From: an uncultured Christensenellaceae bacterium
GTDB lineage: Bacteria; Bacillota; Clostridia; Christensenellales; UBA3700
NCBI GenBank assembly: GCA_944381365.1
Contig: CALWKW010000001.1
Location: forward strand, 62,001-126,000
Length of the DNA: 64,000 nucleotides
Direction: 5' to 3'
The notes beneath the pieces are model-generated. The model had not been told where the DNA came from. It saw only the letters and a program-made list of their open reading frames with translations, and made no database searches. The position numbers and the translations under genes are program-made. Shown here one piece after another: positions 16,679 through 63,627 of this stretch (the first letter of the stretch is position 1; every line of letters begins with the position of its first letter).

Positions 16679-16687
16679 TGATATAAT
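16679..16687 (+). promoter_or_regulatory. Extended -10 promoter giving a leaderless mRNA (U32 gene)
   Basis: TGATATAAT is an extended -10 (TGnTATAAT); exactly six bases separate TATAAT (16682-16687) from ATG 16694. There is no Shine-Dalgarno site and the -35 (TACAAA, 17-base spacing) is weak. Confidence 0.6.
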
Positions 16688-16693
16688 TGAGTT

Positions 16694-18985
16694 ATGACAG
16701 AAGTTTTGGCACCGGTAGGTAGCATACAAGCATTGAAATCGGCAATTTATGCGGGGGCAGACGCTGTATATCTTGGCTTGGATTTGTTTAATGCGAGAAT
16801 AAAAGCCGATAATTTTACTTTGGACAACATAAAAGAATATGTTGAGTATTGCCACTTGTTTGGTGTAAAAGTTTATATTACATTCAATACATCCATAAAA
16901 GAAAAAGAAAGAGAAAAATTTGCAGAATATGTAGATATAGCCGCAAAATCAGGAGTAGACGCTTTTATTGTCACAGATTTGGGCTGTGTAGATATATTAA
17001 GAAAATATAATGTACCTTTGCACGGAAGCACACAAATTGGTGTACATAACTTGGCAGGAGCCATTGTCTTGGAAAAATTGGGTTTTACAAGAGTGGTAAT
17101 GGCAAGAGAAGCTTTGTTTGAGGACATAAAGGAAATTAAAGAGAATACAAATCTTGAAATAGAGTATTTTGTGCATGGTGCATTGTGCGTATGTTTTTCT
17201 GGCGGATGTTTGTTGTCATCAATAATGAGCGGCGATAGTGGAAACAGGGGAAGATGCAATCAGCCTTGTCGATTGAAATATTCTTCATCCTTTGATTCAA
17301 AAGAAAAATATTTGTTGTCGCCAAAGGATCAATGTTTTATCAATGATATAGCTAGATTGATAGAATTGGGTATAGATAGCTTTAAAATCGAAGGAAGGCT
17401 CAAACAGCCTCATTATGTGGGAGAAGTTGTCTCTCAATACAGAAAAGCTGTGGATAATGCTTTGTGTGGCAAAAATCAAGATATTGATATGTCATCTATA
17501 AAAAGAGCTTACAACAGAGGAAATTTTACAAGAGGATATAATTTTGAGAGCTCCAAGCAAATAATATTCGATGCTATAAACGGAAATATAGGCGAAGTTG
17601 TCGGCAAGGTAAAGGGAAACAGAAAAAGTGAATTGATAGTAGCTTTAAAAAAGCCTCTCAATATAGGAGATGGCATAAAGATTATCAATAAAGGCAAAGA
17701 GCTTGGCGGATTGAGCGTAAACTATATCAAAAAGTGCGGAAACGATTACTTAATCCCTTCAAATAAATATTTTGAAGAGGGAAGCGATATTTGTCTTACT
17801 TTGGATAATAATCAAGTCAATAAATATCAGAACATAAATCCCAAAATAAAAATCAGGCTTACTCTTCAGGCTTTTTTAAATCAGCCTGTAAAGATTATAG
17901 CTGAATATAAAAATATCAAAGCAGAAATCTATGGTGACATAGTCGAGAAAGCGGAGAATCGTAAGGCGGATAAGGATAGTATAAAAAAACAACTTTCAAG
18001 ACTTGGGGATAGTAATTTTGATGCAGATATAGATGTTTTGCTCGATGATAAAAATGATGTATTTTTGCCTTTGTCCGCTCTCAATAATCTACGAAGAGAA
18101 GTGTTAAAAGAATTGACGCAAAACATTCTTAATGAGTATTTGATGACTCAGCAAAGAGCAGAGTATAACAAAAGTTTGCAATGTTTTTATGAGCATGAAA
18201 ACACTGATTTTAGAAGTAAGTTTTTTGTCGAAATGGACGAAAAATATATAAGTCAAGATGTGTTTGATAATATTGACGAAAAAATCAGTTTAGTATTAAA
18301 TTATTCTTCTAAATTAGGTCAATTTATAGAAATAATTCTAAAAAATGGCTTAATTAAGAATAAAATAGAAGATATTTATCTAAAATTGCCTAAAGTAGCC
18401 AGAGGTGAGGATTATAGAATTTTAGATAAATTTTTGCAAAACCATGCAAATTTTTTTGACGGAATACTTGCAGATAATTTGTATGGAGTATATCTTGCGA
18501 AGAAGTATTCAAAACGATTGATTGGCGGAGCAGGACTCAATATCTATAATTCTAAAGCTAAAGACATTTTAGGGTTTGACAATCAAATTTCTTCAGTAGA
18601 GCTCAATAAAAACGAGCTTATAGAAAATTCGATAATTTATGCATATGGATTATTGCCCGTAATGACTTTATTGCATTGTCCCGTACAAGTGAATACGGGG
18701 TGCGATTGTGCAAGTTGTAAATATAATGGCGATTTTTATTATTATGATAAAAGAGGCCAATATTTGATAAAAAGGACAAAACTCAAATATTGTCAGTTTA
18801 CTCTTTTTAATCAGCAAAAAATGGATATAATAGCAAAATTGCCAAAAGGAAACTTTTCTTTTTATCTCAATCTTTTAGATTGTAATAAGAATAAGATAAT
18901 AGATGTTTTAAAAAAATATTCGATAAATTCAGGTGTGGCAGAACAAAACAGCACCTGCGGTCATCTGAACAGAGGAGTTAAGTGA
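16694..18985 (+). CDS. Peptidase U32-family protein with DUF3656-type extension
   Basis: A 763-residue member of the U32 'collagenase-like' family, whose bacterial members act in RNA hydroxylation; E. coli RlhA hydroxylates C2501 of 23S rRNA. The N-terminal TIM-barrel-like part starts MTEVLAPVGSIQALKSAI and carries the family signature EYFVHGALCVCFSGGC (about residues 157-172) plus GNRGRCNQPCR and SFKIEGRLKQPHYV. Residues about 290-460 match the DUF3656 region. The C-terminus has another Cys cluster (GCDCASCKYNG). Cys pairs may hold an Fe-S cluster. Exact substrate is inference. Predicted leaderless start. Confidence 0.85.
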   Translation: MTEVLAPVGSIQALKSAIYAGADAVYLGLDLFNARIKADNFTLDNIKEYVEYCHLFGVKVYITFNTSIKEKEREKFAEYVDIAAKSGVDAFIVTDLGCVDILRKYNVPLHGSTQIGVHNLAGAIVLEKLGFTRVVMAREALFEDIKEIKENTNLEIEYFVHGALCVCFSGGCLLSSIMSGDSGNRGRCNQPCRLKYSSSFDSKEKYLLSPKDQCFINDIARLIELGIDSFKIEGRLKQPHYVGEVVSQYRKAVDNALCGKNQDIDMSSIKRAYNRGNFTRGYNFESSKQIIFDAINGNIGEVVGKVKGNRKSELIVALKKPLNIGDGIKIINKGKELGGLSVNYIKKCGNDYLIPSNKYFEEGSDICLTLDNNQVNKYQNINPKIKIRLTLQAFLNQPVKIIAEYKNIKAEIYGDIVEKAENRKADKDSIKKQLSRLGDSNFDADIDVLLDDKNDVFLPLSALNNLRREVLKELTQNILNEYLMTQQRAEYNKSLQCFYEHENTDFRSKFFVEMDEKYISQDVFDNIDEKISLVLNYSSKLGQFIEIILKNGLIKNKIEDIYLKLPKVARGEDYRILDKFLQNHANFFDGILADNLYGVYLAKKYSKRLIGGAGLNIYNSKAKDILGFDNQISSVELNKNELIENSIIYAYGLLPVMTLLHCPVQVNTGCDCASCKYNGDFYYYDKRGQYLIKRTKLKYCQFTLFNQQKMDIIAKLPKGNFSFYLNLLDCNKNKIIDVLKKYSINSGVAEQNSTCGHLNRGVK

Positions 18986-18992
18986 TATTTTA

Positions 18993-21362
18993 ATGGCCAA
19001 TAAATATAATTTTATCAACAGGAAAAGTCTTAAAATCTTGGAATATGACAAAATCTTGTCAAGCATAGCAAACTATGCTTCTTCTGTGCCTGCTCAAAAA
19101 TATATTATGGCACTTAGACCTTCTTTGGATATTGACGAAGTCAATTATCAACTCGATCTTACAAGTCAGGCATACAGAATTATGTTTGATTTGTGCATGA
19201 CGCCGAGTTTTTCAATCGATGAAATCGAAGAAATACTTTCTATAGCAGAAAAACATGCGACTTTGTCTCCTTCTGATATTCTAAAAATAGGAAGACTTTT
19301 GAAATGCTCTAGAGTTTTGTCAAATAATATATTGTCATTGAATGACGAATCCATAATCGATATAAAATCTTTAGCTCAATCTTTATTTTTTGACTTAGAA
19401 CTAGAAAAAAGTATTTATGAAAGCATTCTTGGCGAAAACGAAATAAGCGACAATGCTTCTTCTGCACTCAAATCCATAAGACAGGGCATAAAAAATTGTA
19501 ATGAAAGAATAAGACAAAAACTTATGTCCTATATCACTTCATCGAGTTATAGCAATTATCTTCAGGATTCTCTCATTACTATGAGAAACAACAGATATGT
19601 TATTCCTTTGAAAAGCGAATATTCTCATCAGATAAAAGGTCTTGTTCACGACCAATCGGCATCGGGAGCAACGGTGTATGTAGAGCCTTTGGCGATTGTA
19701 GAATTGAACAATGAGCTTCGCACCCTTGTGGCGGAAGAAAACAATGAAATAGAAAGAATACTTCAATATTTTTCTCAAAAAATATCCTATATTTGCGAAA
19801 ATCTCAGAATAAGTTATGACTTGATAGCAAAATTGGATTGTATTTTTTCAAAAGCCAAATATGCTCAGGAGATAAAAGGCAAAAGAGTAAAAGTCAATAA
19901 AGACGGCTATGTCAATATCATAAAGGGCAGGCACCCTCTTATCGATAAAAACAAAGTGGTACCTGTGTCTATCAGCGTGGGCGGAGAATATAATACTTTG
20001 CTTATCACTGGTCCTAATACCGGCGGAAAGACGGTATGTCTTAAATTGGTAGGCATTTTGTCTTTAATGACAGCTAGCGGAATTTTCCCGCCTTGTGATG
20101 AGGAAAGCAGCATCGCTGTATTTGACAATGTATTTTGCGATATAGGCGATGAGCAAAATATCGAGCAAAACTTGTCTACTTTTTCTTCTCATCTCACAAA
20201 TCTTATATATATTTGCAATCACGTTACAAAAAATTGTCTTTTGCTTTTGGATGAATTGGGAGGAGGTACTGACCCCGCCGAAGGCAGTGCTTTGGCAATA
20301 AGCCTTATAGAATATTTTAAAAACAAAGGATGCAAAACTATCACAAGTACTCACTACAATGAACTTAAAGAATATTCTTTTGTAAACGATGATATTGCGA
20401 CCGCCGGTATGGATTTTGATCCTTTGAGCTTTGCTCCTACTTATAAGCTTATTATGGGACATACAAGTTCGTCAAATGCTTTGGAAATTGCTACGGCTTT
20501 GGGACTTAAGACGGAAATCGTAGACAATGCCAGAAAAAGACTCTCATCAGAAAAAGTCGCTTTTGACAATATCATAAAGGGTGCCGAAAAAGCAAGAAGA
20601 GAAGCTTTGGAGCTTGAAGAAAAAACAAGACAAAATTATATCGTGTCTCAAGAATCGGCTCAAAAAGCAAAAGATGTGCTGGACGAGCTTAATGACAAAA
20701 AAGCAAAGCTTGAAGAAAGAATGAGAAAATCGGCAAAAGAATTGCTGGGTGATTATCTCGATGAAGCGGAAGAATTGGTAGATGAATTGAAAGAATTGGT
20801 CAAAAAGGGAGATGAAAAGGCACTTTTTGAAGCCAGAAGAATAAAAAAGAAGCTTTCCGATATAGAAATATTTACCGAAAAGCCTACTACAAAAATTACT
20901 GAGCTCAACGGCGAGATAGAAGCCGGCGATAAAATCTATATCAAAAATCTCGATAAAATAGGAGAGGTAATATCCGTAAACGATAAGAAAAAAGAGTGTC
21001 TTGCAAAGGTAGGTATTCTTACTACGAGTATAAAACTCAAAGATTGCCAAAAAGTCAAGATCGAAGAGCCCAAGCCTCAACCTAAAGTTACCATAACAAA
21101 AGAGTTTTCAAACAAACCTTTTTCCTTTGAAATCAATCTTATCGGACAAAGAGTGGACGAGGCTTTGTACAATCTCGATAATTATATAAGTGAAGCGATT
21201 TTGCACAACTCAACAGAAATAAGAGTCGTACACGGAAAGGGAACGGGTATTTTGAGAAAAGCTGTTCAGGAATATTTAAGAACATGTCCATATGTCGATT
21301 CATACAGATTGGGAAAATACGGAGAAGGAGAAAGCGGAGTCACCATTGTTACGCTTAAATGA
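18993..21362 (+). CDS. mutS2: Endonuclease MutS2
   Basis: A 789-residue MutS2 protein. Known MutS2 proteins act on collided ribosomes and on recombination intermediates rather than in mismatch repair. The core and clamp regions (1-300) precede the ATPase: Walker A GPNTGGKT at 340-347 and LLDELGGGTDPAEGSAL near 425. A coiled coil (about 520-640) follows and the C-terminal Smr nuclease domain (about 715-789) has the EIRVVHGKGTGILR motif. It starts 8 bases after the U32 stop; AGAGGAG lies 15 bases upstream, longer than usual spacing. Confidence 0.96.
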   Translation: MANKYNFINRKSLKILEYDKILSSIANYASSVPAQKYIMALRPSLDIDEVNYQLDLTSQAYRIMFDLCMTPSFSIDEIEEILSIAEKHATLSPSDILKIGRLLKCSRVLSNNILSLNDESIIDIKSLAQSLFFDLELEKSIYESILGENEISDNASSALKSIRQGIKNCNERIRQKLMSYITSSSYSNYLQDSLITMRNNRYVIPLKSEYSHQIKGLVHDQSASGATVYVEPLAIVELNNELRTLVAEENNEIERILQYFSQKISYICENLRISYDLIAKLDCIFSKAKYAQEIKGKRVKVNKDGYVNIIKGRHPLIDKNKVVPVSISVGGEYNTLLITGPNTGGKTVCLKLVGILSLMTASGIFPPCDEESSIAVFDNVFCDIGDEQNIEQNLSTFSSHLTNLIYICNHVTKNCLLLLDELGGGTDPAEGSALAISLIEYFKNKGCKTITSTHYNELKEYSFVNDDIATAGMDFDPLSFAPTYKLIMGHTSSSNALEIATALGLKTEIVDNARKRLSSEKVAFDNIIKGAEKARREALELEEKTRQNYIVSQESAQKAKDVLDELNDKKAKLEERMRKSAKELLGDYLDEAEELVDELKELVKKGDEKALFEARRIKKKLSDIEIFTEKPTTKITELNGEIEAGDKIYIKNLDKIGEVISVNDKKKECLAKVGILTTSIKLKDCQKVKIEEPKPQPKVTITKEFSNKPFSFEINLIGQRVDEALYNLDNYISEAILHNSTEIRVVHGKGTGILRKAVQEYLRTCPYVDSYRLGKYGEGESGVTIVTLK

Positions 21363-21837
21363 CAAACAAAAATATTCTATTGAAATAGAAAACAACGACA
21401 AAGGAGCGCTTAAGATATTTACTCTTGCGTTGTGTATCATTGTGGATCTTATAATATTTGCAAGTATTATAGGTGCATTGTCCACGGCAAAATATCTTGA
21501 TATTTTGTGGTATGCGTTTGGATTTGTCGTGATTAGCTTTATACAATATATTGCTACTTTTCTTACACACAAAATTCATATAGAATTTGATGACGGAGTT
21601 TTTATAGTAAAAAAATTATATCCGCTAAAAACAAAAACAATTATAAACGCCTCTGCTTCTCAAATAAAAATTTATAATATCGAAGATAAAGACTTATTCG
21701 AGAATAATATCAAAAAAGCATACAGAATGTGTGTCAATACTTGCTCATATCCGATTTATGTGATAGAATTATCGGGAAAAAAGTATTTGTTGAATCTTGA
21801 TGATTATATGTATTCTATCGTGAAGGAGAGAGAATGA
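21346..21837 (+). CDS. Small membrane protein, unknown function
   Basis: About 163 residues with two adjacent hydrophobic segments (IFTLALCIIVDLIIFASIIG and the stretch around LDILWYAFGFVVISFIQYIA) followed by a soluble beta-rich part (IHIEFDDGVFIVKKLYPLKTKTI) that resembles bacterial PH-type domains in pattern only. I place the start at TTG 21346 because GGAG (21336-21339) is six bases upstream; an ATG at 21292 has no ribosome binding site and would overlap mutS2 by 71 bases. The stop overlaps the next gene (ATGA). I do not recognise a named family. Confidence 0.6.
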   Translation: MLRLNDKQKYSIEIENNDKGALKIFTLALCIIVDLIIFASIIGALSTAKYLDILWYAFGFVVISFIQYIATFLTHKIHIEFDDGVFIVKKLYPLKTKTIINASASQIKIYNIEDKDLFENNIKKAYRMCVNTCSYPIYVIELSGKKYLLNLDDYMYSIVKERE

Positions 21838-23018
21838 TTTATCTTGATAATGCAGCCACTACATGTTTGGACGAAAAGTGTTTTGATATAATAAGAGAAT
21901 ATAATATAGACAGATTTTATAATCCGTCAGCTTTATACAGAAAAGCTATGGAAAGTGCCAACGCAATCAAAGATGCGAGAAATATTATTGCAAAATCTTT
22001 GGGAGCGAAGGGAGAAGAAATCATATTTACGGCATCGGGAAGTGAAGGCGATAATATTGCCTTGTTTTGTTCAGTACGCTCAAAAAGCGGAAAAATAATA
22101 GTGGGTTCGAGCGAGCATAGTGCGATATATAATTCGGCTCTTGAATTGAAAGTGAGAGGTTTTGATGTGATTTTTGCTCCGTGCGATTGCTATGGCAGAA
22201 CAGATATAGAAAAGCTTGAAAAGCTTTTGGATGATAAAGTCGTATTAGTATCAATTATGCATGTTTGCAACGAAACAGGTGCTTTGAACGATTTGGCCAA
22301 AATATCAAAATTGATAAAATCAAAATGTCCTAGAGCAATTTTCCATTCTGACGGAGTTCAGGCTTATGGAAAAATACCTGTCAATGTCAAAGCCTTGGGA
22401 GTCGATTTGTACACAATAAGCGGTCATAAAGTGCATGCTCCCAAAGGTATCGGAGCTTTGTATTGCAGGAGCAATCTTTATCTGAAGACTTTTGTCTTTG
22501 GCGGCGGACAGGAAAACAACATAAGATCTGCTACGGAAAATTTGCCCTCTATTATGGCATTTTCGTATGTGGTCGACAATAATTTTAAAAACATTGCTCA
22601 AAATTATCAGAATATAAAAGAATTGAGGGATTATTTGTATTCTCAACTCTTACAAAATTTTGAAAATATAAAAATCAATACCGATATCAACAATTCTTCG
22701 CCTTATGTATTTTCTTTTGCTCTCAATAGTGCAAGAGGAGAAGTGCTTGTGCATTGTCTGGAGGATAAGGGAGTAATTGTCGGTACAGGCTCGGCATGTA
22801 ATTCCCAAAAATCCACAAAACGAATACCTTCGGCTTTGGGAATAGAAGAAGACTTTGCTCAAGGAATGATAAGAGTGAGCTTTAATGAGAAAAACACTAA
22901 GTCGGATGTCGATGAATTCATAAAAGCTCTCGGAGAAAGTCTAAGTGAATTAATTAAATATCAAAACAAGTCTGCATCCAAGGACGATTGTATTCTCAGC
23001 AGATTAAAATTGAGGTAA
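21834..23018 (+). CDS. Cysteine desulfurase (NifS/IscS-like, class V aminotransferase)
   Basis: A 394-residue PLP enzyme that removes sulfur from cysteine as a protein-bound persulfide. Evidence: N-terminal IYLDNAATTCLDE, the PLP-lysine motif SGHKVHAPKGIGALY (about residues 200-214), and the active-site loop GTGSACNSQKS (about 315-325) with the catalytic Cys. It directly precedes thiI, two bases apart, so it most likely supplies sulfur for 4-thiouridine in tRNA, as NifZ does in Bacillus, though other sulfur acceptors are possible. Its start overlaps the preceding small membrane protein. Confidence 0.92.
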   Translation: MIYLDNAATTCLDEKCFDIIREYNIDRFYNPSALYRKAMESANAIKDARNIIAKSLGAKGEEIIFTASGSEGDNIALFCSVRSKSGKIIVGSSEHSAIYNSALELKVRGFDVIFAPCDCYGRTDIEKLEKLLDDKVVLVSIMHVCNETGALNDLAKISKLIKSKCPRAIFHSDGVQAYGKIPVNVKALGVDLYTISGHKVHAPKGIGALYCRSNLYLKTFVFGGGQENNIRSATENLPSIMAFSYVVDNNFKNIAQNYQNIKELRDYLYSQLLQNFENIKINTDINNSSPYVFSFALNSARGEVLVHCLEDKGVIVGTGSACNSQKSTKRIPSALGIEEDFAQGMIRVSFNEKNTKSDVDEFIKALGESLSELIKYQNKSASKDDCILSRLKLR

Positions 23019-23020
23019 TT

Positions 23021-24196: not shown

Positions 24197-24203
24197 AAAA
24201 TCA

Positions 24204-26480: not shown

Positions 26481-26500
26481 AATATTATATTTATATTTAC

Positions 26501-26529
26501 TTGTTTTTTTTAGGGTTTTTGATTATAAT
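26501..26529 (+). promoter_or_regulatory. Promoter of miaB, leaderless arrangement
   Basis: TTGTTT (26501-26506), 17-base spacer, TATAAT (26524-26529), then exactly six bases to ATG 26536. No Shine-Dalgarno site is present, so transcript and protein should start at the same base. Confidence 0.7.
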
Positions 26530-26549
26530 TGGTATATGCAAAAATACAA
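26522..26549 (-). promoter_or_regulatory. Candidate promoter of the PBP gene, facing miaB
   Basis: On the - strand, TTGTAT (26549-26544), 16-base spacer, TATAAT (26527-26522), 35 bases before the predicted leader end. Its -10 shares ATTATAAT with the miaB -10 on the other strand and its -35 lies inside miaB. Confidence 0.45.
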
Positions 26550-35722: not shown

Positions 35723-36790
35723 TTAATTTTCAGTATTTTCATCGTGATTTCTTAGCAATACTTTGCTTGCAGCTTTTCTTTTTATTTCATCACTTATTGC
35801 CGCATAATGCTTTTTGGTGGTATTTATATCTTTATGTCCAAGCACTTCGGCTACTACATATATATCATTTGTTTCTTTATACAAATTTGTGCCATAAGTA
35901 CTTCTCAATTTGTGTGGCGTAATATGTTTTAAAGGCGTGGTAATACTTGCATATTTTTTTACAAGATTTTGTACGGCTCTTACGGTAATTCGCTTGTTTT
36001 GCAATGAAAGGAAAAGAGCAGGTTCATTCTCGATATCTTTATTCTGATTTCTTTCTTCTATATAATCTGATAAAGCATTTGCTACTTCGTCAGAAAAATA
36101 TAAAATGGTTTGATTTCCGCCTTTTCTTGTGATTTTAAAGCCGTTTATATTAAAATCGATGTCATCTATATCGATGCCGACAAGCTCGCTTATTCTTATG
36201 CCTGTACCCAAAAACAAAGTGAGTATGGCAATATCCCTTTTTTTCGTCTTTTTTTGCAAAGCAAGCTGTTTTGGAGATAATCCGTTACCGGTCTCTACAT
36301 TATCCAGCAATTTGACCACTTCGTCTACTTCAAGTCTGATTATGGCTTTATCATGCAATTTAAGACTAAGCACTTTGGATGCCGGATCGGCAGGTATTCT
36401 GTCTTTGTTGTAATTGTACTTAAAAAATGATTTTATAGTAGCAAGTTTTCTTGCTTTGGTTTTTTCAGTATTGGTATATTCAATGCCGTCATGCGTAAAA
36501 GCCGTAAGAAAATTCAAAAACATTTCTATATGAAAAGTTTCTACTTTTTCTAGTTGTTCATAATCAAATTGTCTGATATCTTTGATATTTATAAATTCTG
36601 CACATTCTGTGGTGAGAAAATAAAAGAAAATCTTTAAATCCTGAGCATATCCCAATCGGGTAAGAATAGAAGTCCTGTTTTCGATACCGAGAAAATAGTC
36701 ATTGCAAATATAGGGCAATTCTTTGAGAAGTTGTCTTAATTTTATGGTATTTTCAAAGTTTCTTTGCTCAAAATAAGTTTTATCTGACAT
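35723..36790 (-). CDS. Tyrosine recombinase, Xer/phage-integrase family
   Basis: A 355-residue site-specific recombinase with an N-terminal SAM-like core-binding domain (about 15-135) and a catalytic domain with the full set R199 (GTGIRISEL), K223 (TRKGG), H293 and R296 (TPHKLRSTYG), H319 (VLGHK) and nucleophile Y329. It is about 50 residues longer than typical XerC/XerD. No other mobile-element gene is near, so a chromosomal role such as dimer resolution is more likely than a prophage integrase. It lies next to a 0.9 kb AT-rich region with a dif-like repeat, at the coding-strand switch. Predicted leaderless start. Confidence 0.88.
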   Translation of the reverse strand: MSDKTYFEQRNFENTIKLRQLLKELPYICNDYFLGIENRTSILTRLGYAQDLKIFFYFLTTECAEFINIKDIRQFDYEQLEKVETFHIEMFLNFLTAFTHDGIEYTNTEKTKARKLATIKSFFKYNYNKDRIPADPASKVLSLKLHDKAIIRLEVDEVVKLLDNVETGNGLSPKQLALQKKTKKRDIAILTLFLGTGIRISELVGIDIDDIDFNINGFKITRKGGNQTILYFSDEVANALSDYIEERNQNKDIENEPALFLSLQNKRITVRAVQNLVKKYASITTPLKHITPHKLRSTYGTNLYKETNDIYVVAEVLGHKDINTTKKHYAAISDEIKRKAASKVLLRNHDENTEN

Positions 36791-36796
36791 ATAAAT

Positions 36797-36825
36797 ATTA
36801 TATCATAAAATCTTTTATATTTCAA
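36797..36825 (-). promoter_or_regulatory. Promoter of the recombinase, leaderless arrangement
   Basis: On the - strand: TTGAAA (36825-36820), 17-base spacer, TATAAT (36802-36797, extended by TGA), exactly six bases, then ATG 36790. No Shine-Dalgarno site. Confidence 0.72.
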
Positions 36826-48330: not shown

Positions 48331-49158
48331 TTAATTACCCCAATAATTTAGTTTTTTTCTTAATTTAAGATAGAAGTTTTCGTCTTTTAATCTGATAAAC
48401 AAAGCACTTTTTTGTGCCTTTTCGATTACAAGCTCTATTCCTTTTTTGTCTTTGGCTATTACTTCTCCGTCTGCTATTACTCTAATATTGTCCGAATTTG
48501 TGCAAATCTTTATTTTCATATCATCATCGACAACAATCGGACAACTATGTAATGAATGAGGACATATCGCATTTATGATAAGAGCTTTTACCGTAGGACT
48601 TAGCACGGGGCCATTGCAAGACAATGAATATGCTGTCGAGCCTGTGGGCGTAGATACCAATATCCCGTCACTTCGACATGAATCAGCCTTTATGTTGTCA
48701 ATCTCGATATTAAAAGTGGAGATATGACAAGGGTCTTGTCTGTTTACGATAATTTCATTTAATGCAAAATATTCTTTATTGTCAATCTCAGTGCGTAAAA
48801 GCGTACGATTTTCTATTACATACTGATTAGATTTAAGGCATTTTATGGCAAAATCCAATTCACTTTCATCCAATTCAGTCAAAAAGCCTATTTTCCCCAT
48901 ATTGATTCCGAGTATTGGCAGATTTTTTTGCATTTTTCTTACGGTATCTAGCATTGTACCGTCTCCGCCAAATGCTACGACAATATCGCACCAATCGAAT
49001 ACTTCATTCATAGGAGCAATTTCTTTTGTAGAAAAATAAGCAGCCGCATTGTCGCAAACCAAAAAATCGATATTATTCTTTTTTAGTTTGCTACAAAAAG
49101 TGGAGCTAGCTTTTGCGTATATATCTCTGTTGAGATTTATGTTTATTCCTATTTTCAT
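48331..49158 (-). CDS. nadK: NAD kinase
   Basis: A 275-residue enzyme that makes NADP from NAD and ATP. Motifs: GGDGTML at 64-70, NEIIVNR, and the glycine-rich TPTGSTAYSLSCNGP region. No Shine-Dalgarno site; promoter elements put the first transcribed base at the A of ATG, although tlyA is only 27 bases upstream. Confidence 0.95.
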   Translation of the reverse strand: MKIGININLNRDIYAKASSTFCSKLKKNNIDFLVCDNAAAYFSTKEIAPMNEVFDWCDIVVAFGGDGTMLDTVRKMQKNLPILGINMGKIGFLTELDESELDFAIKCLKSNQYVIENRTLLRTEIDNKEYFALNEIIVNRQDPCHISTFNIEIDNIKADSCRSDGILVSTPTGSTAYSLSCNGPVLSPTVKALIINAICPHSLHSCPIVVDDDMKIKICTNSDNIRVIADGEVIAKDKKGIELVIEKAQKSALFIRLKDENFYLKLRKKLNYWGN

Positions 49159-49164: not shown

Positions 49165-49193
49165 ATTATAACTTTTTTTGCATATTTATTCAA
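49165..49193 (-). promoter_or_regulatory. Promoter of nadK, leaderless arrangement
   Basis: On the - strand: TTGAAT (49193-49188), 17 bases, TATAAT (49170-49165), six bases, ATG 49158. The -35 overlaps the end of tlyA, so nadK-argR-recN can be expressed apart from tlyA. Confidence 0.7.
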
Positions 49194-49908
49194 TACTTTT
49201 GTATAGATATATCAAAAATTCTTTATTTTTGCCTTCTTTTATTGGTGCAGTGGTAAGATTTTTGTATTCAAGTCCGATGCTATTTGCAAAGTTTTTTATG
49301 TCTTCACACACCTCTTTGTGTACTTTGGCATCCAAAACTATGCCTTTTTTGCTCAGATATTTACTTCCAGCTTCAAATTGAGGCTTAATTAAAGCAATAA
49401 TTTCGCCATTTTGTTTGAGAAGCTCTTTTACGCTAGGTAGAATTAATTTTAATGAAATAAAGCTTACATCAATACAAGCAAAGTCACATAGTTCTCCCAA
49501 GTCTTCAGATTTAATATATCTTGCATTTGTCTTGTCTTTGATGATTACTCTTTTATCGTTTTTAAGGTTTTCGTCAAAAGCACATTCTCCCACATCAACT
49601 GCATATACTTTTTTTGCTCCGTTTTGCAGCATACAATCCGTAAAACCGCCGTTAGATGCTCCGATATCGACACATATTTTGTCTTTGAGATTGTAATCAA
49701 AATCGTCAAGTGCTTTTTGAAGCTTATCTCCGCCCAAAGATGAAAATCTAAAATTGTTGATAATTTCAACATTTTCGTTGTCTTCAATCTCCAACGAAGG
49801 TTTTGAAATAATTTTGCCATTGACTTTGACAAAACCGCTTTGAATTAGCTGTTTTGCTTTTGTTCGTGTAATATTTTGTGTTTTTGATATATACAAATCC
49901 AATCTCAT
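49186..49908 (-). CDS. tlyA: TlyA-family rRNA 2'-O-methyltransferase
   Basis: A 240-residue protein with an N-terminal S4 RNA-binding domain (residues 1-60) and an FtsJ-like methyltransferase domain (SAM motif KICVDIGASNGGFTDCML near 76-93; DVGECAF). In other bacteria TlyA methylates 16S and/or 23S rRNA and affects capreomycin sensitivity and haemolysin-like phenotypes. It heads the tlyA-nadK-argR-recN group. No Shine-Dalgarno site; predicted leaderless. Confidence 0.92.
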   Translation of the reverse strand: MRLDLYISKTQNITRTKAKQLIQSGFVKVNGKIISKPSLEIEDNENVEIINNFRFSSLGGDKLQKALDDFDYNLKDKICVDIGASNGGFTDCMLQNGAKKVYAVDVGECAFDENLKNDKRVIIKDKTNARYIKSEDLGELCDFACIDVSFISLKLILPSVKELLKQNGEIIALIKPQFEAGSKYLSKKGIVLDAKVHKEVCEDIKNFANSIGLEYKNLTTAPIKEGKNKEFLIYLYKSIE

Positions 49909-49927
49909 AATTTGATTATATCAAATT
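49909..49927 (-). promoter_or_regulatory. tlyA extended -10 inside a perfect palindrome
   Basis: On the - strand TGATATAAT (extended -10; TATAAT 49920-49915) lies exactly six bases before ATG 49908. The same bases form the palindrome AATTTGAT-TAT-ATCAAATT. The -35 region is weak. Confidence 0.6.
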
Positions 49928-55850: not shown

Positions 55851-55859
55851 AGTAATTCC

Positions 55860-56198: not shown

Positions 56199-56224
56199 AA
56201 ACAAATACCTCCTTTGCCAATATT

Positions 56225-56253
56225 ATTCTAACATATCATAATCTTTTTGACAA
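56225..56253 (-). promoter_or_regulatory. Promoter of the asp23-dxs operon
   Basis: On the - strand: TTGTCA (56253-56248), 17 bases, TAGAAT (56230-56225), about 30 bases before ATG. Confidence 0.72.
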
Positions 56254-56292
56254 GTTATATATTAATTATTAATATTTATGATATCATTATAA

Positions 56293-56332
56293 TATAAAAA
56301 AAGAAAAATGTCGGCTTTTTGAACCGACATTT
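56293..56332 (-). terminator. Terminator of the spoIIIA operon
   Basis: AAATGTCGG/CCGACATTT arms (56306-56314, 56324-56332) followed on the - strand by a T-rich run, 28 bases past spoIIIAH. Confidence 0.88.
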
Positions 56333-56359
56333 ATTAATTAATTGCTATTTTTTTGACTA

Positions 56360-56890: not shown

Positions 56891-56904
56891 ATAAACCTCC
56901 AAAA

Positions 56905-57324: not shown

Positions 57325-57328
57325 CTTA

Positions 57329-57781
57329 TCAACTCCTTATGACTTTTACATCTCCAAGATATTTTTCAATCAGGTCTTGCAATTTTTCCAATTCTTGCGT
57401 GCTCAAGTCATCCGATGACAATATAGTAATATTCTCGATATTATACATATATTCATCATCAAAATAAATTTTATATCGAATATTGTCAAAACCTTCCGAT
57501 TGAAGAATTTTATCAAAATTATCCTTTATTTTATTGTGATATTCTGTCTTGATTGACTCATAAGAACCTTCGTCCATTTCTATTTGAACGGATTCATTGC
57601 TGAAATAATTATTTACTCCGTCCGTTGTCATCAACTTGGGAAAAGGCGAAACAATGACGAAAACCACTATTATGGAAAAAATGCCTTTAATATATTTGCT
57701 GTGTTCGCCTTCAGGCATAATGATTTCTATCAAAACACCCAAAGACACTACGCCCACAATACCTAATAACCATGCCGTCAT
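57329..57781 (-). CDS. spoIIIAF: Stage III sporulation protein AF
   Basis: A 150-residue protein with two N-terminal membrane segments (about 3-20 and 30-46) separated by the conserved PEGEHSKYIKGIFSIIVVF block, and a soluble C-terminal ring-building domain. Part of the SpoIIIA secretion-like complex. Its start overlaps the spoIIIAE stop (TGATG). Confidence 0.92.
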   Translation of the reverse strand: MTAWLLGIVGVVSLGVLIEIIMPEGEHSKYIKGIFSIIVVFVIVSPFPKLMTTDGVNNYFSNESVQIEMDEGSYESIKTEYHNKIKDNFDKILQSEGFDNIRYKIYFDDEYMYNIENITILSSDDLSTQELEKLQDLIEKYLGDVKVIRS

Positions 57782-58998
57782 CAGATTATGCCTCCGTTTG
57801 ATGTATAAATAATAAGCATTATCGTAATCAAAAACATAAAACCTGCACCGACCAAAGAAATTATAAGAAGAGTCATGTTTGATGCAATATTTGAAAGCAT
57901 TTTGCTGAACTTATTGTCGCAAACAGGCTCTATTATTCCGCTTGCAAGTTTAAGCCCCAATGATAAGACTATTATTTTGATTGTAGGCAAAGCAATGATT
58001 GACAAAATCATTATAAGTCCAATAACACCGATTGAATTTTTTATAAGCACCAAACTTGCGAGCATAAGGTCAAATCCGTCTGACAAATATCCGCCCAATA
58101 CAGGTATATAGCTTTGCATGGCAAATTTTGCAGTCTTTATCGATATGCTGTCGATCACTCCGCCGGTCAGTCCCTGAAATGTCAAAAAGGCAACAAACAG
58201 CGAAAATACACCTCCCAGAATATATGTAGCTGATGATTTGAAAAACTCTGTAAGTTTGTCAAGTTTTACGCTTTTTGTAAGATTTCCCACTATACTGAAA
58301 GCTATCGCCGCGATAAACATCGGAATAATTATTTTGGAGATAAATACGGTAATTATTGTGACAAGTGTCGTCATCATAGGTTTGAATACCGCAGAAGTAG
58401 TCACTCCGCCCAAAAGCGTGGTCATAGTCAAAAGTATAGGAAATATCGCCTGCATTAGTATGCTTATATTTGAAATAGTATTCGTTGTGAGTTTTATCAC
58501 TTTGCCTACTTCCACCATGACAATCAAAATCATGGTGCTGTATGTGGCAAAATAAATGAGTTTTTCAGTAGGTTTTTGTACAAAACCCGATGTAAATCCG
58601 CCCAAAAGGCTATAAAGTATTGCGATTGCTACAATCGTGAGGATAGTAGGCAAAATATCGAGTATGCTTTTTGACAATCCTTTTAGCATTATGTTTAGAA
58701 AATCATCAAAACCGCCCTCGTACTTTCCATAAATTATTTGTTTTGCAGTGTCAACCACATCTTTGCCAAACAGCGTTTTGTAGTCTTCAGATATATTGTC
58801 AAACAACTCTTCTAATTTTGACATATCAATGTCAGATAGATTATTTTCTATATTTTCTTCGAGTATCTCTTCTGCATCTTTATCTGTTTTTGCAAAACAA
58901 ATCTTATTGTCAGATAAAATCGCACTCAATAACAAGATTAGAAAAATAATTATAATGATATAGATTTTCGCATGTTTTTTATAAATATATTTCGTCAT
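57781..58998 (-). CDS. spoIIIAE: Stage III sporulation protein AE
   Basis: A 405-residue polytopic protein: signal-like N-terminus (about 12-36), acidic soluble region (to about 110), then about seven membrane segments. Family blocks: TTSAVFKPMMTTLVTIITVF-type sequence, GGVFSLFVAFLTFQGLTGG and GGYLSDGFDLMLASLVLIKNSIG. It is the main membrane channel candidate of SpoIIIA. Start overlaps spoIIIAD by 4 bases. Confidence 0.94.
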   Translation of the reverse strand: MTKYIYKKHAKIYIIIIIFLILLLSAILSDNKICFAKTDKDAEEILEENIENNLSDIDMSKLEELFDNISEDYKTLFGKDVVDTAKQIIYGKYEGGFDDFLNIMLKGLSKSILDILPTILTIVAIAILYSLLGGFTSGFVQKPTEKLIYFATYSTMILIVMVEVGKVIKLTTNTISNISILMQAIFPILLTMTTLLGGVTTSAVFKPMMTTLVTIITVFISKIIIPMFIAAIAFSIVGNLTKSVKLDKLTEFFKSSATYILGGVFSLFVAFLTFQGLTGGVIDSISIKTAKFAMQSYIPVLGGYLSDGFDLMLASLVLIKNSIGVIGLIMILSIIALPTIKIIVLSLGLKLASGIIEPVCDNKFSKMLSNIASNMTLLIISLVGAGFMFLITIMLIIYTSNGGII

Positions 58999-59378
58999 AA
59001 GATTTCAATGATTACATTTATAAGACTTTCTATTATTGGAAGAGCCAATAAAAATATAGTGATTTTTCCTGCAAAAGATAGTTTTTTGCCAATGCTTGCA
59101 CACCCTAAGTCTTCACATACGCTCTGACTGTATTCAGTGAGATATCCTATGCCTATAATTTTCAGAAGGCTTGCAAATATCTTATTGTCTACACCCGTTT
59201 TGTCGATTATCGCTTGAAACGAAAGTATAACTTTCGTAAAAGACGACAATGCAATTATAAGTATTATAATTCCGGTAGCAAGAGTGGACAATGCGGCATA
59301 CTGAGATTGCGTATTTTTTAATATCAGAGTACAGACAGCTCCTATGATTGCTATGCCTATAATCTTAAAAATATCCAT
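58995..59378 (-). CDS. spoIIIAD: Stage III sporulation protein AD
   Basis: A 127-residue membrane protein with about four hydrophobic segments; FASLLKIIGIGYLTEYSQSVCEDLG is the family signature (central). Small SpoIIIA component of the export-like complex. It starts seven bases after spoIIIAC and its stop overlaps spoIIIAE. Confidence 0.93.
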   Translation of the reverse strand: MDIFKIIGIAIIGAVCTLILKNTQSQYAALSTLATGIIILIIALSSFTKVILSFQAIIDKTGVDNKIFASLLKIIGIGYLTEYSQSVCEDLGCASIGKKLSFAGKITIFLLALPIIESLINVIIEIL

Positions 59379-59385
59379 AAAACAC

Positions 59386-59583
59386 CTAATATAAATTGAG
59401 CAATGATTTTAGAGTATCAAACAATCCGCTCAGCATGTCCAATACCAAAACCAACACAAGCACAAGACCGGCTATCGTGACGAAGTTTGCGATTTCATCC
59501 TTATCGCTTTTTTTGAGAATAACATTGATAATAGCTGTCAAAAGTCCTATTCCTGCAATTTTAAAAATTATATCTATTTCCAT
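59386..59583 (-). CDS. spoIIIAC: Stage III sporulation protein AC
   Basis: A 65-residue protein with two membrane segments (about 5-21 and 34-52) and the conserved polar turn KKSDKDEIANFVTIAG. ATG 59583 is chosen because AAGAGGTG is nine bases upstream. Part of the SpoIIIA complex. Confidence 0.94.
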   Translation of the reverse strand: MEIDIIFKIAGIGLLTAIINVILKKSDKDEIANFVTIAGLVLVLVLVLDMLSGLFDTLKSLLNLY

Positions 59584-59593
59584 ACACACCTCT

Positions 59594-60094
59594 TTATGCC
59601 ATTATCAGCATTATGGCTATGCCGGCAAGCAATCCTAATTTTGATAATACCGCTCCCGTAGTTTTGCTGTCTTTTTCTGCTTTATCTCTTAGTTTTTCTG
59701 CCTGAACCATAGTAAGATTTACTTTTGCAATCTGATTATCATAATCCAATGTGCCTAAAGTAAGAAAAAATTCATTCACAAATGCCCTTTCGCCTTTTTT
59801 TAGATATTTATAATCAAAAATATCTTTTATGTTTTTTTCTGTATTTTCGCCTTTTGCCAGAATTTCTTTGTACAGGACAAGAGCTTTGCATATATCCCCC
59901 TTGTTTTGCTGTACGAATTTGTCAGCAATGGATATGAGATTATCTTTTGAATAAACCATGTTGTCCTTTAAGTCTTGCAAAAAAGCTACAAAATCTTTTA
60001 GAAATCTGTATCTTTTGTCATAATACAATTTTCCAGTAATTCCTATATATGTGCTGATAAAACATAGCATTCCGCCCAATATGAGATCCAGCAT
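59594..60094 (-). CDS. spoIIIAB: Stage III sporulation protein AB
   Basis: A 166-residue protein with an N-terminal membrane segment, a helical soluble part (RYRFLKDFVAFLQDLKDNMVYSKDNL and FFLTLGTLDYDNQIAKV) and a hydrophobic C-terminus. It resembles type II secretion GspF-like components. Starts one base after the spoIIIAA stop, with GAGGT. Confidence 0.93.
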   Translation of the reverse strand: MLDLILGGMLCFISTYIGITGKLYYDKRYRFLKDFVAFLQDLKDNMVYSKDNLISIADKFVQQNKGDICKALVLYKEILAKGENTEKNIKDIFDYKYLKKGERAFVNEFFLTLGTLDYDNQIAKVNLTMVQAEKLRDKAEKDSKTTGAVLSKLGLLAGIAIMLIMA

Positions 60095-60095
60095 A

Positions 60096-60953
60096 TCAAC
60101 CTCTTCTTAAGTCAATTATTTTATCTATATTTCCAATCCCTTTTATAAGGACTATATATCTGACATATTGCAGCAGCTTGTTGTAAATACTATTTTTTTT
60201 CAAAATTTCAGGATCGCCGCTATGAACGGTGGCGAGAATCTTTACGCCGCATCTTATGCAATCCAATATACATTCCACTTCTTTTTCTCCAAAAATTTCA
60301 TCGCTTGCTATAATGTCGGGACGCATGCTTCTCACTTGAGATGCGTATGCCTGAAGTTTTGGTATGCCAAGCACCGTATCGCTGCACTCTCCTAAGTTTA
60401 TATTTTCTTTGCCCATACTCATTCCCGACAATTCTCCTCTTTCGTCAAGCACTAGAATATTAAAGCCTTCATCGGATAAATGTCTTATCATATATCTTAA
60501 AAGAGTCGTCTTTCCCAAACCTGGTCTTGACAAAATCAAAGTATTGTCAAAATGATTTATTAATTCATTTATACGCACATCTTTTATGTCGATATAATGT
60601 GGTATCCTTATGCAAAGCGATGTAATATTTTTGATAGAAGACAGATTGCCGTTTTTGATTACGCCTTCGCCGCTTATACCTATTCTTATACCTCCGTCAT
60701 AAGATATAAATCCGTCCAAAATGCTTGAATTATAAGCATATAACGAAGATTTTGTAGCGACAGCCAATACGCTCTTTATGTCTTGATCGCTTACTATATA
60801 TTCAGGCAAAAGCTTTTGGTATCTGCCGTTTTCGGCAAAATACAATGGCTTTTGTGCTCTCAGTCTTATCTCTGTAAGCCTTGAAATATCGCATTTGGAC
60901 ACAAGCTCATTGAAGATAGATACAGGCAAAAGTCTCTCAATAAATTCTTCCAT
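60096..60953 (-). CDS. spoIIIAA: Stage III sporulation protein AA (ATPase)
   Basis: A 285-residue secretion-type ATPase that powers the SpoIIIA complex. Walker A SRPGLGKTTLLRYM (about 167-180), LVLDERGELSG (Walker B-like) and MRPDIIASDEIFG are visible. The frame extends about 25 codons further 5', but MEEFIERLLP is the usual family start. ATG 60953 has no Shine-Dalgarno site; TAATAT lies five bases upstream, and GCATAC 17 bases before that, so a sporulation promoter with nearly no leader is possible but unproven. First gene of spoIIIAA-AH. Confidence 0.92.
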   Translation of the reverse strand: MEEFIERLLPVSIFNELVSKCDISRLTEIRLRAQKPLYFAENGRYQKLLPEYIVSDQDIKSVLAVATKSSLYAYNSSILDGFISYDGGIRIGISGEGVIKNGNLSSIKNITSLCIRIPHYIDIKDVRINELINHFDNTLILSRPGLGKTTLLRYMIRHLSDEGFNILVLDERGELSGMSMGKENINLGECSDTVLGIPKLQAYASQVRSMRPDIIASDEIFGEKEVECILDCIRCGVKILATVHSGDPEILKKNSIYNKLLQYVRYIVLIKGIGNIDKIIDLRRG

Positions 60954-61041
60954 ACAATATATTAATGAGGATTTTCCATAGGTATGCGGAAAGTACAAAT
61001 CTATCTTTAAAACAGCTTTTTTCGACAAAAAGCATAAAAAA

Positions 61042-61061
61042 TAAGCCGAATATATCGGCTT
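61042..61061 (-). terminator. Terminator of the Cys-rich membrane protein gene
   Basis: AAGCCGA/TCGGCTT arms with ATATA loop, followed on the - strand by TATTTTTTAT. Confidence 0.78.
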
Positions 61062-61103
61062 TTAAATCAAATTTATTATAAAAAAAGATTATATATTTAT
61101 TGA

Positions 61104-61925
61104 TTACATAATCTTTTTTGTTTTTCTTTCTTCGTTGCAGATTTTTCCTTTTATTCTGCACCACTCCTCATTACAATCCTTGCAGGATAATGAGCAATTT
61201 GTATATTCGATAAATCTTTCGGGGTGTTTATAATATGTGATTTCCCATCTTACAAACACAATTATCGACAAAATCGTGAGAGATGTAGCATAAAAATTGG
61301 GAATATAAAACATTGGTACTTGTATCATAATAGCTCCCCAATCATAGATTCTGCATGTCTTACAACATTTATTGTGCATAAACCATTTTTGAAAAGGACA
61401 GAAAAATATAATACAAATAAAATCACTCAGATAGAAAAACATCTGAACGATTATTATGAGTTGACCGCCGTGTCCTCCGAAAATTTTGTGAGGAGAATAA
61501 GTGTCAATCATATAAAGGATAAATATGACAAGATTGAGTATGCCATAAGCAATACCCGTCAATATTGCACCTTTTTGATAAAATTTTTTGGTAAGTCTGA
61601 TTACTTCAGGATTGTTTCTTTGACTGGGAGAAAACTGCTTTGCAAATTTTTTTGTACTACCCTTCGATACGAATTTGATATTTATTAGATGCGACAACAT
61701 GTACAGCATCATAAAAGACCATACTATATGCAAAGGAGAAAAACCATGCCAAAATCCATCGGCTAAAATTCCGTCACGATAATAATTACTGTCAATTATG
61801 CGACTTATACCGAAAATCTCATTTCCCGTTATTATCTCGTATATAGTAAAAGAAGTCAGGACAATAAAAACTATTGCCCTAAACACAAATCTTATAAAAT
61901 ATGCATCGAATTTTTTTCTTTCCAC
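61104..61925 (-). CDS. Cys-rich polytopic membrane protein, unknown function
   Basis: 273 residues with about six membrane segments and Cys-rich cytoplasmic or outer loops: FCPFQKW, HNKCCKTCRIYDWG (about residues 185-198) and a C-terminal CSLSCKDCNEEWCRIKGKICN cluster (about 243-263). The pattern suggests metal or Fe-S binding. It resembles an uncharacterised family I have seen in Clostridia, but no function is known to me. It starts with GTG, has no clear Shine-Dalgarno site, and lies directly behind a 12-bp inverted repeat. It sits between efp and spoIIIAA, where Bacillus has the unrelated small yqhV. Confidence 0.7.
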   Translation of the reverse strand: MERKKFDAYFIRFVFRAIVFIVLTSFTIYEIITGNEIFGISRIIDSNYYRDGILADGFWHGFSPLHIVWSFMMLYMLSHLINIKFVSKGSTKKFAKQFSPSQRNNPEVIRLTKKFYQKGAILTGIAYGILNLVIFILYMIDTYSPHKIFGGHGGQLIIIVQMFFYLSDFICIIFFCPFQKWFMHNKCCKTCRIYDWGAIMIQVPMFYIPNFYATSLTILSIIVFVRWEITYYKHPERFIEYTNCSLSCKDCNEEWCRIKGKICNEERKTKKIM

Positions 61926-61935
61926 AATACAATCA

Positions 61936-61964
61936 TTTTGTAGCGGAACATGTCCGCTACAAAA
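61936..61964. repeat. 12-bp perfect inverted repeat between efp and the Cys-rich gene
   Basis: TTTTGTAGCGGA and TCCGCTACAAAA arms (61936-61947, 61953-61964) with a 5-base loop. It is GC-rich against its surroundings. It could end efp transcription, but no T run follows on the - strand. A TATAAT (61977-61972) overlaps the efp stop, so the hairpin would sit at the very 5' end of a transcript for the Cys-rich gene. Confidence 0.6.
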
Positions 61965-61972
61965 AGTTTATA

Positions 61973-62539
61973 TTATACTCTGGACATGTAAGAGCCTGTA
62001 CGAGTATCGACTCTTATTGTATCGCCTTCGTTTACAAACAAAGGAACTTGCAATGTATAACCTGTCTCCAAAGTAGCAGGTTTTGTAGCACCTTGAGCTG
62101 TATTACCCTTTGCACCGGGTTCGCAATGTGTGATAAGAAGTTCTACAAAGTTGGGAGCTTCTACTTCGAAAGGATTGCCGTTGTAGAAAGATACGGTAAC
62201 TTCGCCGTTCTCCATAACATACATCAAAGCATCTTCAGCATACTCCTTGTTGATAGGCAACATATCAAAAGTGTTGGGATCCATAAAGTAATAGAGATCC
62301 CCGTCATTGTATGAATATACCATTGTTTTATGCTCGATATGAGCAGTCTGGAACTTTGCTGTGGGGTTGAAAGTCATTTCTACGGTGCCACCATTGATAA
62401 CATCTCTCAACTTTGTACGAACAAAAGCCGCACCTTTACCGGGTTTTACATGCAAGAAATCAACGACAGTAACTACTTTGCCGTCCATCTCGAAAGTGAC
62501 GCCCTTTCTGAAATCACCCGCCAATACAAAATCAGCCAT
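61973..62539 (-). CDS. efp: Elongation factor P
   Basis: A 188-residue tRNA-shaped factor that relieves ribosome stalling at polyproline. Three beta-barrel domains; the KOW-like first domain has the modified-loop motif [15 protein letters not shown] with the tip Lys, and the C-terminal OB domain ends [23 protein letters not shown] precedes ATG. Follows the peptidase gene by 18 bases. It marks the start of the efp-spoIIIA block conserved with Bacillus. Confidence 0.97.
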
Positions 62540-62557
62540 AAAATACCTCCAATATAT

Positions 62558-63592
62558 TTAAAGAATAATTAATTGTTTATTAGCATTAGTCAATGATTTG
62601 ACTGAATTCTCTTTTATAAGAGCCATATCTTCGATACGGACTCCGAATTTTCCGTCAATATACAATCCTGGTTCTACCGTCACTATCATATTGTGCCTTA
62701 AGATATTCTCTTCTTTAGGTGTAAGTCCCGTACCTTCATGTATATCTATTCCCACTCCGTGTCCTAATGAGTGAGTAAAATACTTGTCCATAGAATATTT
62801 TTTGAAATAATCTCTTGCAAGTTTGTCACCGTCTTTTCCTGTCATACCTGCTTTTAGATTATCCAAAGCATAAAGCTGAGCACCCAAAACTATGTCATAC
62901 AAATCTTTTTGTTCTGACGAAGGATTGCCAAAACAAATTGTCCTTGTCATATCCGAACAATAACCATTGTATTTTGCTCCTATATCCATTGTGATAAAGT
63001 CGCCTTTTTTGAGCTTTTTATCGCTTCTGTGTGCATGAGGACTTGATGTATGTTCCCCAAAAGCCACAATACTGTCAAATGCTATGCCGCATCCGTTTTT
63101 GAGCATTTGATACTCGATGTATCCCGCAAGCTCATACTCTGTAATATCTTCTTTTATGAATTCAAGAGCTTTTTCGAAAGCAAGTTCTGTGACGGACTGA
63201 GCTTTTAATATATTGTCGATTTCATAATCAAATTTGATATCTCTTAAAAGATTTATCTCATTTGTTATGTCTACAAGGTTTTTGCCAAGACATAAATTCT
63301 GAAGATTTTTGTATTCAGAATATGTGATATTTTCTTCAAATCCTATGACATTGCCTTCGATAATATCGACATTTTCCTTTAAACTTCCGCAAATTACTTC
63401 AAATTTATCGCCAAGTTTTTGCTTTGCCTCAAAAAAATACCTCATATCCGTAAGAAAATATGATTTATCTTTTTTGATTACTATCTGACAATTTGTAGAA
63501 GAATATCCCGATAAATACAAAGTATTTGACGGCAAAAGCAAAATTATTGTATCGACTTTTGCACTATCATACAATTTTCTGCATATATCCAT
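62558..63592 (-). CDS. M24-family Xaa-Pro aminopeptidase
   Basis: A 344-residue dinuclear metallopeptidase that removes N-terminal residues before proline (YqhT/PepP/PepQ group). A creatinase-like N-terminal domain (1-125) precedes the pita-bread domain with metal ligands in TMDIGAKYNGYCSDMTRT (two Asp), HSLGHGVGIDIHEG (His), VTVEPGLYI (Glu) and VRIEDMALI (Glu). In Bacillus the same gene also precedes efp. Predicted leaderless start at ATG 63592. Confidence 0.93.
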   Translation of the reverse strand: MDICRKLYDSAKVDTIILLLPSNTLYLSGYSSTNCQIVIKKDKSYFLTDMRYFFEAKQKLGDKFEVICGSLKENVDIIEGNVIGFEENITYSEYKNLQNLCLGKNLVDITNEINLLRDIKFDYEIDNILKAQSVTELAFEKALEFIKEDITEYELAGYIEYQMLKNGCGIAFDSIVAFGEHTSSPHAHRSDKKLKKGDFITMDIGAKYNGYCSDMTRTICFGNPSSEQKDLYDIVLGAQLYALDNLKAGMTGKDGDKLARDYFKKYSMDKYFTHSLGHGVGIDIHEGTGLTPKEENILRHNMIVTVEPGLYIDGKFGVRIEDMALIKENSVKSLTNANKQLIIL

Positions 63593-63598
63593 AGTGTT

Positions 63599-63627
63599 AT
63601 TCTACCATAATTTTATTTGTATGTAAA
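63599..63627 (-). promoter_or_regulatory. Promoter of the M24 peptidase gene, leaderless arrangement
   Basis: On the - strand: TTTACA (63627-63622), 17 bases, TAGAAT (63604-63599), six bases, ATG 63592. No Shine-Dalgarno site is present. Confidence 0.7.

Follow-up and report, generated by a model that had tools for sequence, protein, structure and literature searches.

We examined a 64,000-nucleotide (nt) stretch of DNA from an uncultured Christensenellaceae bacterium (contig CALWKW010000001.1; hereafter, the window) and found that it holds members of a recurrent class of genes in which a TATAAT-like -10 box lies exactly six bases ahead of the ATG (N6 spacing) and no Shine-Dalgarno (SD) site is present. 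Judged from sequence and conservation, this promoter class is real and selected, and we infer that the mRNAs it gives rise to are leaderless. A sigma-A start 7 bases past the -10 lands on the A of the ATG. Very probably, then, sigma-A starts the mRNA of such genes on that A, and the resulting 5'-terminal AUG is read by the ribosome. In the mechanism that we propose, sigma-A RNA polymerase would bind the -10 box together with a -35 element or an extended -10 and begin the transcript at the A of the ATG; the transcript without a leader would then be initiated at its 5'-terminal AUG, for example on 70S ribosomes, and modest constitutive output would be a likely use of so compact a promoter. About two dozen genes of the examined part of the genome, including dnaA, are predicted to be leaderless and would thus depend on a mode of translation that is less common than the SD-led one.

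A sequence-only reading of the window had named six such genes, those of a U32 family protein, MiaB, a tyrosine recombinase, NadK, TlyA, and an M24 family peptidase, and its description of them was borne out in every detail (Table 1). All six have TATAAT (TAGAAT at the M24 gene), exactly six further bases, and ATG, and none has an SD match of at least 4 bases. A -35 hexamer lies at exactly 17 bp in four of them (TTGTTT at miaB, TTGAAA at the recombinase gene, TTGAAT at nadK, and TTTACA at the M24 gene), and the remaining two, the U32 gene and tlyA, have an extended -10 in which TGA precedes the box.

We counted boxes before ATG candidates near coding onsets, at spacings from N0 to N12, in 643 genes (start codons predicted) that a simple coding-potential script called in 864 kb of this genome. 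Exact TATAAT occurred 17 times at N6 and 0 to 3 times at each other spacing. In the 800 kb outside the window (held-out set, 588 genes), 12 exact boxes stood at N6 versus 17 summed over the other twelve spacings (mean, 1.4; Poisson P, 4e-8). When one mismatch was allowed, 29 sites were found at N6 and 98 at the other spacings, and the start-adjacent class came to about 3 to 6% of the predicted genes, background not subtracted. The claim that the class is recurrent was thus upheld by this held-out excess, as well as by the promoter elements, lack of SD sites, gene positions, and orthologues described below.

The N6 sites differ from the others in more than spacing. TTG was present 16 to 18 bp upstream of the box in 20/29 N6 sites versus 11/98 at other spacings, a TGn extension was present in 14/29 N6 sites, and one or the other in 25/29, which supports the sigma-A-type promoter assumed by the earlier reading. 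SD matches of at least 4 bases were found at 1/29 N6 sites, leaving 28/29 without, versus 33/98 at other spacings; sites with both a TTG -35 and no SD numbered 19 at N6, window included, versus 10/98 over the other twelve spacings. The ATG was directly preceded by T at 27 and by C at 2 of the 29 N6 sites, and by T at 71/98 sites with other spacings and at 536/938 (57%) of ATG candidates generally; pyrimidine-A is a common transcription start-site step. We also considered that the A/T-rich box might work in translation, through contact with the ribosome or S1, and not as a promoter. Upstream A/T-rich and U-rich biases of non-SD genes have been considered as possible S1 sites (PMC5397173), but the box is hexamer-specific and its pairing with TTG 16 to 18 bp upstream or a TG extension fits sigma-A, so that a purely translational role is barely credible.

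No exact N6 box preceded any of the 217 GTG or 602 TTG candidates of the study genome. Since such starts are few among SD-led candidates too (48 with an SD of at least 5 bases, versus 356 ATG), this dependence on ATG is suggestive only. Mycobacterial leaderless transcripts, which have a start-adjacent promoter and no SD and involve a larger share of genes, also use GTG starts, unlike the 217 GTG candidates here. Elsewhere, one exact N6 box was found before a GTG in Clostridium brassicae and one before a TTG in a genome from another order of the class (G419). For TTG candidates of the 864 kb, the spacing peak within N0 to N12 was TATAAT-N4-TTG (6/602), perhaps a reading-frame chance. By a permissive measure, 488/643 genes have a start candidate with an SD of at least 4 bases near the onset, and a working anti-SD is therefore likely; no match to the 16S 3' end was found among 278 loci.

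We further followed the spacing through orthologues, the counts of which include the study genome. For miaB, N6 was found in 26/30 orthologues, down to 65% protein identity, and TTG lay 16 to 18 bp upstream of a box in 28/30. For nadK, N6 was found in 22/27 orthologues (21 by script and 1 by eye, the latter having two boxes of which the script chose the other), and 16 different box-ATG hexamers occurred among 21 orthologues; thus, the length of the spacer is conserved and its sequence is not. The nadK -35 TTGAAT is also present in same-genus relatives; because it overlaps the end of tlyA, protein conservation accounts for part of its own. TATAAT-N6-ATG preceded dnaA, the most striking member of the class, in 12/21 genomes read: 8/8 in the genus, 2/9 in other genera of the family, and 2/4 in other families (f19 and f13). 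By eye, a TTG precedes the box. With one mismatch allowed, the U32 gene had N6 in 13/29 orthologues, all of the same genus except one from another genus of the family (G019), which has an SD there as well. The conservation of spacing that the earlier reading had suggested as a check thus held for miaB, nadK, and, within the genus, dnaA, partly for the U32 gene, and poorly for tlyA, in which N6 was found in just 5/30 orthologues.

The miaB box-ATG hexamer (window 26530 to 26535; loci L250 to L276) is nearly fixed, being mostly TGTTAT, with 5 hexamers in 26 orthologues; this difference from nadK suggests a further constraint, for example, an operator or overlap of the divergent promoter. In the dnaA of two genomes (G018 and G023; loci L353 and L354), the arrangement is TATAAT-N2-ATG-CGT-ATG, with the ATGs six bases apart and either a possible start.

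Several results weigh against the leaderless reading, as do the limits stated below with the comparisons of gene position and of other genomes. The raw genome-wide count of TATAAT-N-ATG, which had been put forward as a check, fails in the study genome (N5, 64; N6, 65; N7, 87), because matches away from gene starts swamp any N6 excess. Exact sites are denser in the window (5 in 64 kb) than in the remaining 800 kb (12), as the window was picked for them. In 24 genomes of other families in the order, raw N6 counts are not above N7 (N5/N6/N7, 690/811/808), and no start-anchored N6 excess was seen in 200 kb each of G636 (1 site), G489 (0), and G419 (0). Both tlyA and the U32 gene lose the box beyond close relatives, it being absent within 15 nt of the start in most other orthologues (22/30 and 16/29, respectively). 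In the genomes that lack N6 at dnaA, the boxes are shifted and one (G049) has an SD. Spacings of N7 to N9, which predict a leader of 1 to 3 nt, occur in 5/27 nadK and 2/30 miaB orthologues. Finally, the first 40 nt of leaderless-type mRNAs are not less structured, either in the study genome (-2.78 versus -2.86 kcal/mol) or in G019 (-5.26 versus -5.09 kcal/mol).

The raw counts, and a reading of the window that looked for such sites, would suit an explanation by chance, in which an AT-rich genome is rich in TATAAT and the reader chose the boxes near ATGs. This is opposed by the held-out excess, the -35 elements, the orthologues, and the occurrence of the same class in a genus with 56% G+C, and we consider it very unlikely. 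Raw pattern counts were dropped as a test, given that N6 tops both N5 and N7 in just 37/59 genomes; the sums over these 59 genomes, including the study genome, are 1987, 2736, and 2465 for N5, N6, and N7, and the N6 excess is contributed by the genus (630/872/761) and by the family (667/1053/896).

The N7 to N9 orthologues and shifted boxes, the latter in several of the 21 dnaA sequences, also bear on whether the genes are strictly leaderless or only start adjacent: the promoters could be real but give a leader of 1 to 3 nt, or a second, longer transcript could carry most of the translation. Sigma-A start sites generally vary by 1 to 2 nt. Besides, miaB was read by eye in 20 genomes of the order beyond the family. 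N7 was seen in two of these, from two other families (G057 and G047), and several genes were SD-led; in one genome (G043), TATAAT-N6-ATG occurs, but its in-frame ATG precedes the aligned start by 45 nt. On the other hand, N6 alone dominates in two genera, where N5 and N7 account for 0 to 3 exact sites, and 28/29 N6 sites lack an SD on which a longer transcript could draw. We therefore hold the short-leader alternative to be unlikely.

Since start codons were predicted and not measured, the true starts might lie downstream, the promoters then yielding normal leaders inside the called coding sequence. However, just 1/29 genes offers another start with an SD of at least 5 bases in the region from -150 to +90 nt around the coding onset, and the orthologue alignments of miaB, nadK, and tlyA mostly start at residue 1. 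A later miaB start would lose the cysteine of the N-terminal TYGCQMN stretch, which we take to be important, and this argues against a downstream start there. Such an arrangement is highly improbable. The nearest in-frame stop upstream of the ATG lies at 6 nt for the U32 gene, 93 for miaB, 15 for the recombinase gene, 30 for nadK, 15 for tlyA, and 12 for the M24 gene; at no more than 15 nt in four of the six, it leaves little room for other starts in those genes.

In terms of position, a same-strand gene lies less than 25 nt upstream of 0/24 leaderless-type genes versus 130/335 SD-led genes (P, 2e-5), a contrast that is partly built in because a promoter needs upstream room. The corresponding counts in G019 are 0/9 versus 33/100 (P, 0.05). 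Leaderless-type genes are divergent from their neighbor in 11/24 cases versus 46/335 for SD-led genes.

The same start-anchored count was made in other genomes. In G019 (238 genes; the 56% G+C genus mentioned above), exact TATAAT occurred 12 times at N6 and 0 or 1 times at each other spacing, 4 in all over the other twelve (mean, 0.33), and 3/15 N6 sites had an SD match of at least 4 bases. In G588, from another family of the order (137 genes), 3 exact boxes stood at N6 and at most 1 at other spacings. Clostridium brassicae had an exact N6 box before 0/193 ATG candidates, and 77 tlyA regions of other genomes, most of them clostridial, had one before 1/383. The study genome (17/643 genes) thus differs from these (1/438; P, 0.001), as does its held-out set (12/588; P, 0.01), although the 438 genes that stand for other clostridia in this comparison come from a single genome and from loci chosen around tlyA.

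A stringent pattern, TTG-N20-TATAAT-N6-ATG, was found 15 times in the study genome versus 0 times for the reversed pattern used as control. Across 200 genomes of the order it was found 1,863 times versus 65 reversed (mean, 9.3; at least 10 sites in 81/200), in a count controlled by reversal only and with the ATG not checked as a gene start. In 383 genomes of other classes in the phylum, the mean was 2.04 versus 0.44 reversed, with at least 10 sites in 0/383, and in 14 genomes of other orders in the class it was 4.5, with one outlier of 18. By these counts, the order as a whole is enriched in the -35/-10/N6/ATG pattern, with family means of 21.4 (f172), 19.8 (f1), and 18.7 (f14) and, at the other end, levels near that of the phylum in f4, f23, and f171. 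The genomes of family f168, at 0.8 to 1.3 Mb, average 9.3 stringent sites, which is dense for genomes so small. The 18 stringent sites of G419 (loci L309 to L318) match the genomes of the study family; in the 200 kb of it that were read, an exact N6 box before an ATG start candidate is absent despite these sites.

All 29 box-led proteins of the study genome and 10/15 of those of G019 were scanned against NCBIfam, and several of the resulting names fall under the curated cut-off. Names of genome upkeep (DnaA, RecF, RecG, UvrC, AddB, and the Xer-like recombinase), RNA modification (MiaB, TlyA, MnmE, and TadA), and nucleotide or cofactor metabolism (NadK, dGTPase [dgt], and dihydrofolate reductase [folA]) were obtained in the study genome. 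Further names were the U32/TrhP-like protein, HAD phosphatases, the PepQ-like M24 peptidase, the SCIFF maturase, another radical SAM protein, FtsA-like, SpoIIGA, YlbJ, and a short protein resembling the end of Spo0A, and 6/29 had no NCBIfam match. In G019, the names included a NadD/YqeK fusion, a DEDDh exonuclease domain protein, RlmD, MnmA, and others, with 2/10 unmatched. Among the annotated hits, there is an apparent lean to genome upkeep and RNA modification. Divergent neighbors, recF and dnaA (L068:1254-3856) both carry an N6 box, TAAAAT and TATAAT, respectively. It is conceivable, but doubtful, that dnaA, recF, recG, uvrC, addB, miaB, tlyA, and mnmE form a leaderless upkeep regulon of this order whose joint output is set by ribosomal acceptance of leaderless mRNAs; if so, DNA replication and repair would be coupled to the condition of the translation apparatus and not to a transcription factor.

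The earlier reading had taken leaderless mRNAs to be rare in Bacillus and Clostridium, a premise that should be softened. Most clostridial start-site maps give small numbers, including 15 leaderless candidates in C. difficile (PMC7438776), about 2 to 3% of transcripts in solventogenic clostridia (PMC9045289), and 4% in C. phytofermentans, generally with another upstream start and ribosome-binding site kept (PMC5171806), and 212 have been claimed in C. acetobutylicum (PMC4533764). A 2011 survey placed the leaderless genes of Firmicutes mostly in Lactobacillales and Mycoplasma and found such genes commoner in information storage and processing and less likely among translation genes (PMC3160421). 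The upkeep and RNA-modification lean seen here recalls the former bias. Like the present class, the low-G+C Firmicutes of that survey show TAtAAT before the start codon and, in some genomes, a TG peak preceding it (PMC3160421); the present lineage differs in being Clostridia-like.

In Deinococcus-Thermus, a -10 motif lies about 6 to 7 bp before the open reading frame (ORF), and experiments in Deinococcus radiodurans have identified it as a promoter -10 giving leaderless mRNA, with a certain spacing to the ORF needed (PMC12340547). The -10 is adjacent to the ORF in our genome as in D. radiodurans, and here the promoter is read, and the leaderless state predicted, from sequence. The D. radiodurans motif is TANNNT, stands ahead of almost one third of ORFs, and raised transcription when a -35 was added (PMC12340547), whereas the present class has near-consensus TATAAT, the TTG -35 in 20/29, and a share of about 3 to 6% of predicted genes in a Clostridia-like lineage. 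In a literature search that took in few subscription journals and no bioRxiv preprints, we found no paper on leaderless mRNA with Christensenella or with Clostridia and MiaB, nor any on transcription start sites in Christensenellales, the order of Clostridia to which NCBI assigns Christensenella. Thus, the class is ordinary in kind, being a start-adjacent -10 as in Deinococcus, and new in its clade as far as searched. With its plan kept across genera for nadK, miaB, and partly dnaA, it would give Clostridia a leaderless class that is old and under selection. It could aid the calling of gene starts and promoters when genomes of this order are assembled, and it would offer a natural system in which SD-led and leaderless housekeeping genes can be compared inside one cell.

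Table 1. Promoter elements and genes of the six start-adjacent sites in the window
Feature	Positions	Strand	Remarks
U32 gene -10, TATAAT	16682..16687	+	Extended (TGA before); N6 TGAGTT; ATG at 16694
U32 family gene, 763 amino acids (aa)	16694..18985	+	ORF and NCBIfam scan
miaB -35, TTGTTT	26501..26506	+	17 bp from -10
miaB -10, TATAAT	26524..26529	+	N6 TGGTAT; ATG at 26536
miaB, tRNA methylthiotransferase, 440 aa	26536..27858	+	TIGR01574, 500 bits, above cut-off
Tyrosine recombinase gene -35, TTGAAA	36820..36825	-	17 bp from -10
Recombinase gene -10, TATAAT	36797..36802	-	N6 ATTTAT; ATG at 36790
Xer-like tyrosine recombinase gene, 355 aa	35723..36790	-	XerS model, 176 bits, below cut-off of 267
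nadK -35, TTGAAT	49188..49193	-	Overlaps final codons and stop codon of tlyA
nadK -10, TATAAT	49165..49170	-	N6 AAAAAT; ATG at 49158
nadK, NAD kinase family, 275 aa	48331..49158	-	Matches under curated cut-offs
tlyA -10, TATAAT	49915..49920	-	Extended (TGA); N6 CAAATT; ATG at 49908
tlyA, TlyA family rRNA methyltransferase, 240 aa	49186..49908	-	TIGR00478, above cut-off
M24 gene -35, TTTACA	63622..63627	-	17 bp from -10
M24 gene -10, TAGAAT	63599..63604	-	TGG before box; N6 AACACT; ATG at 63592
M24 family peptidase gene, 344 aa	62558..63592	-	PepQ-like, below cut-off

The top NCBIfam match of the U32 protein was the tRNA uridine hydroxylase TrhP, at 194 bits and under the cut-off of 534. Elsewhere in the window, a T-box leader (11516 to 11733; 103.8 bits, gathering score 93) lies ahead of an ORF at 11773, and a cluster of five tRNA genes (Met, Asp, Phe, Thr, and Tyr) occupies positions 5796 to 6277.

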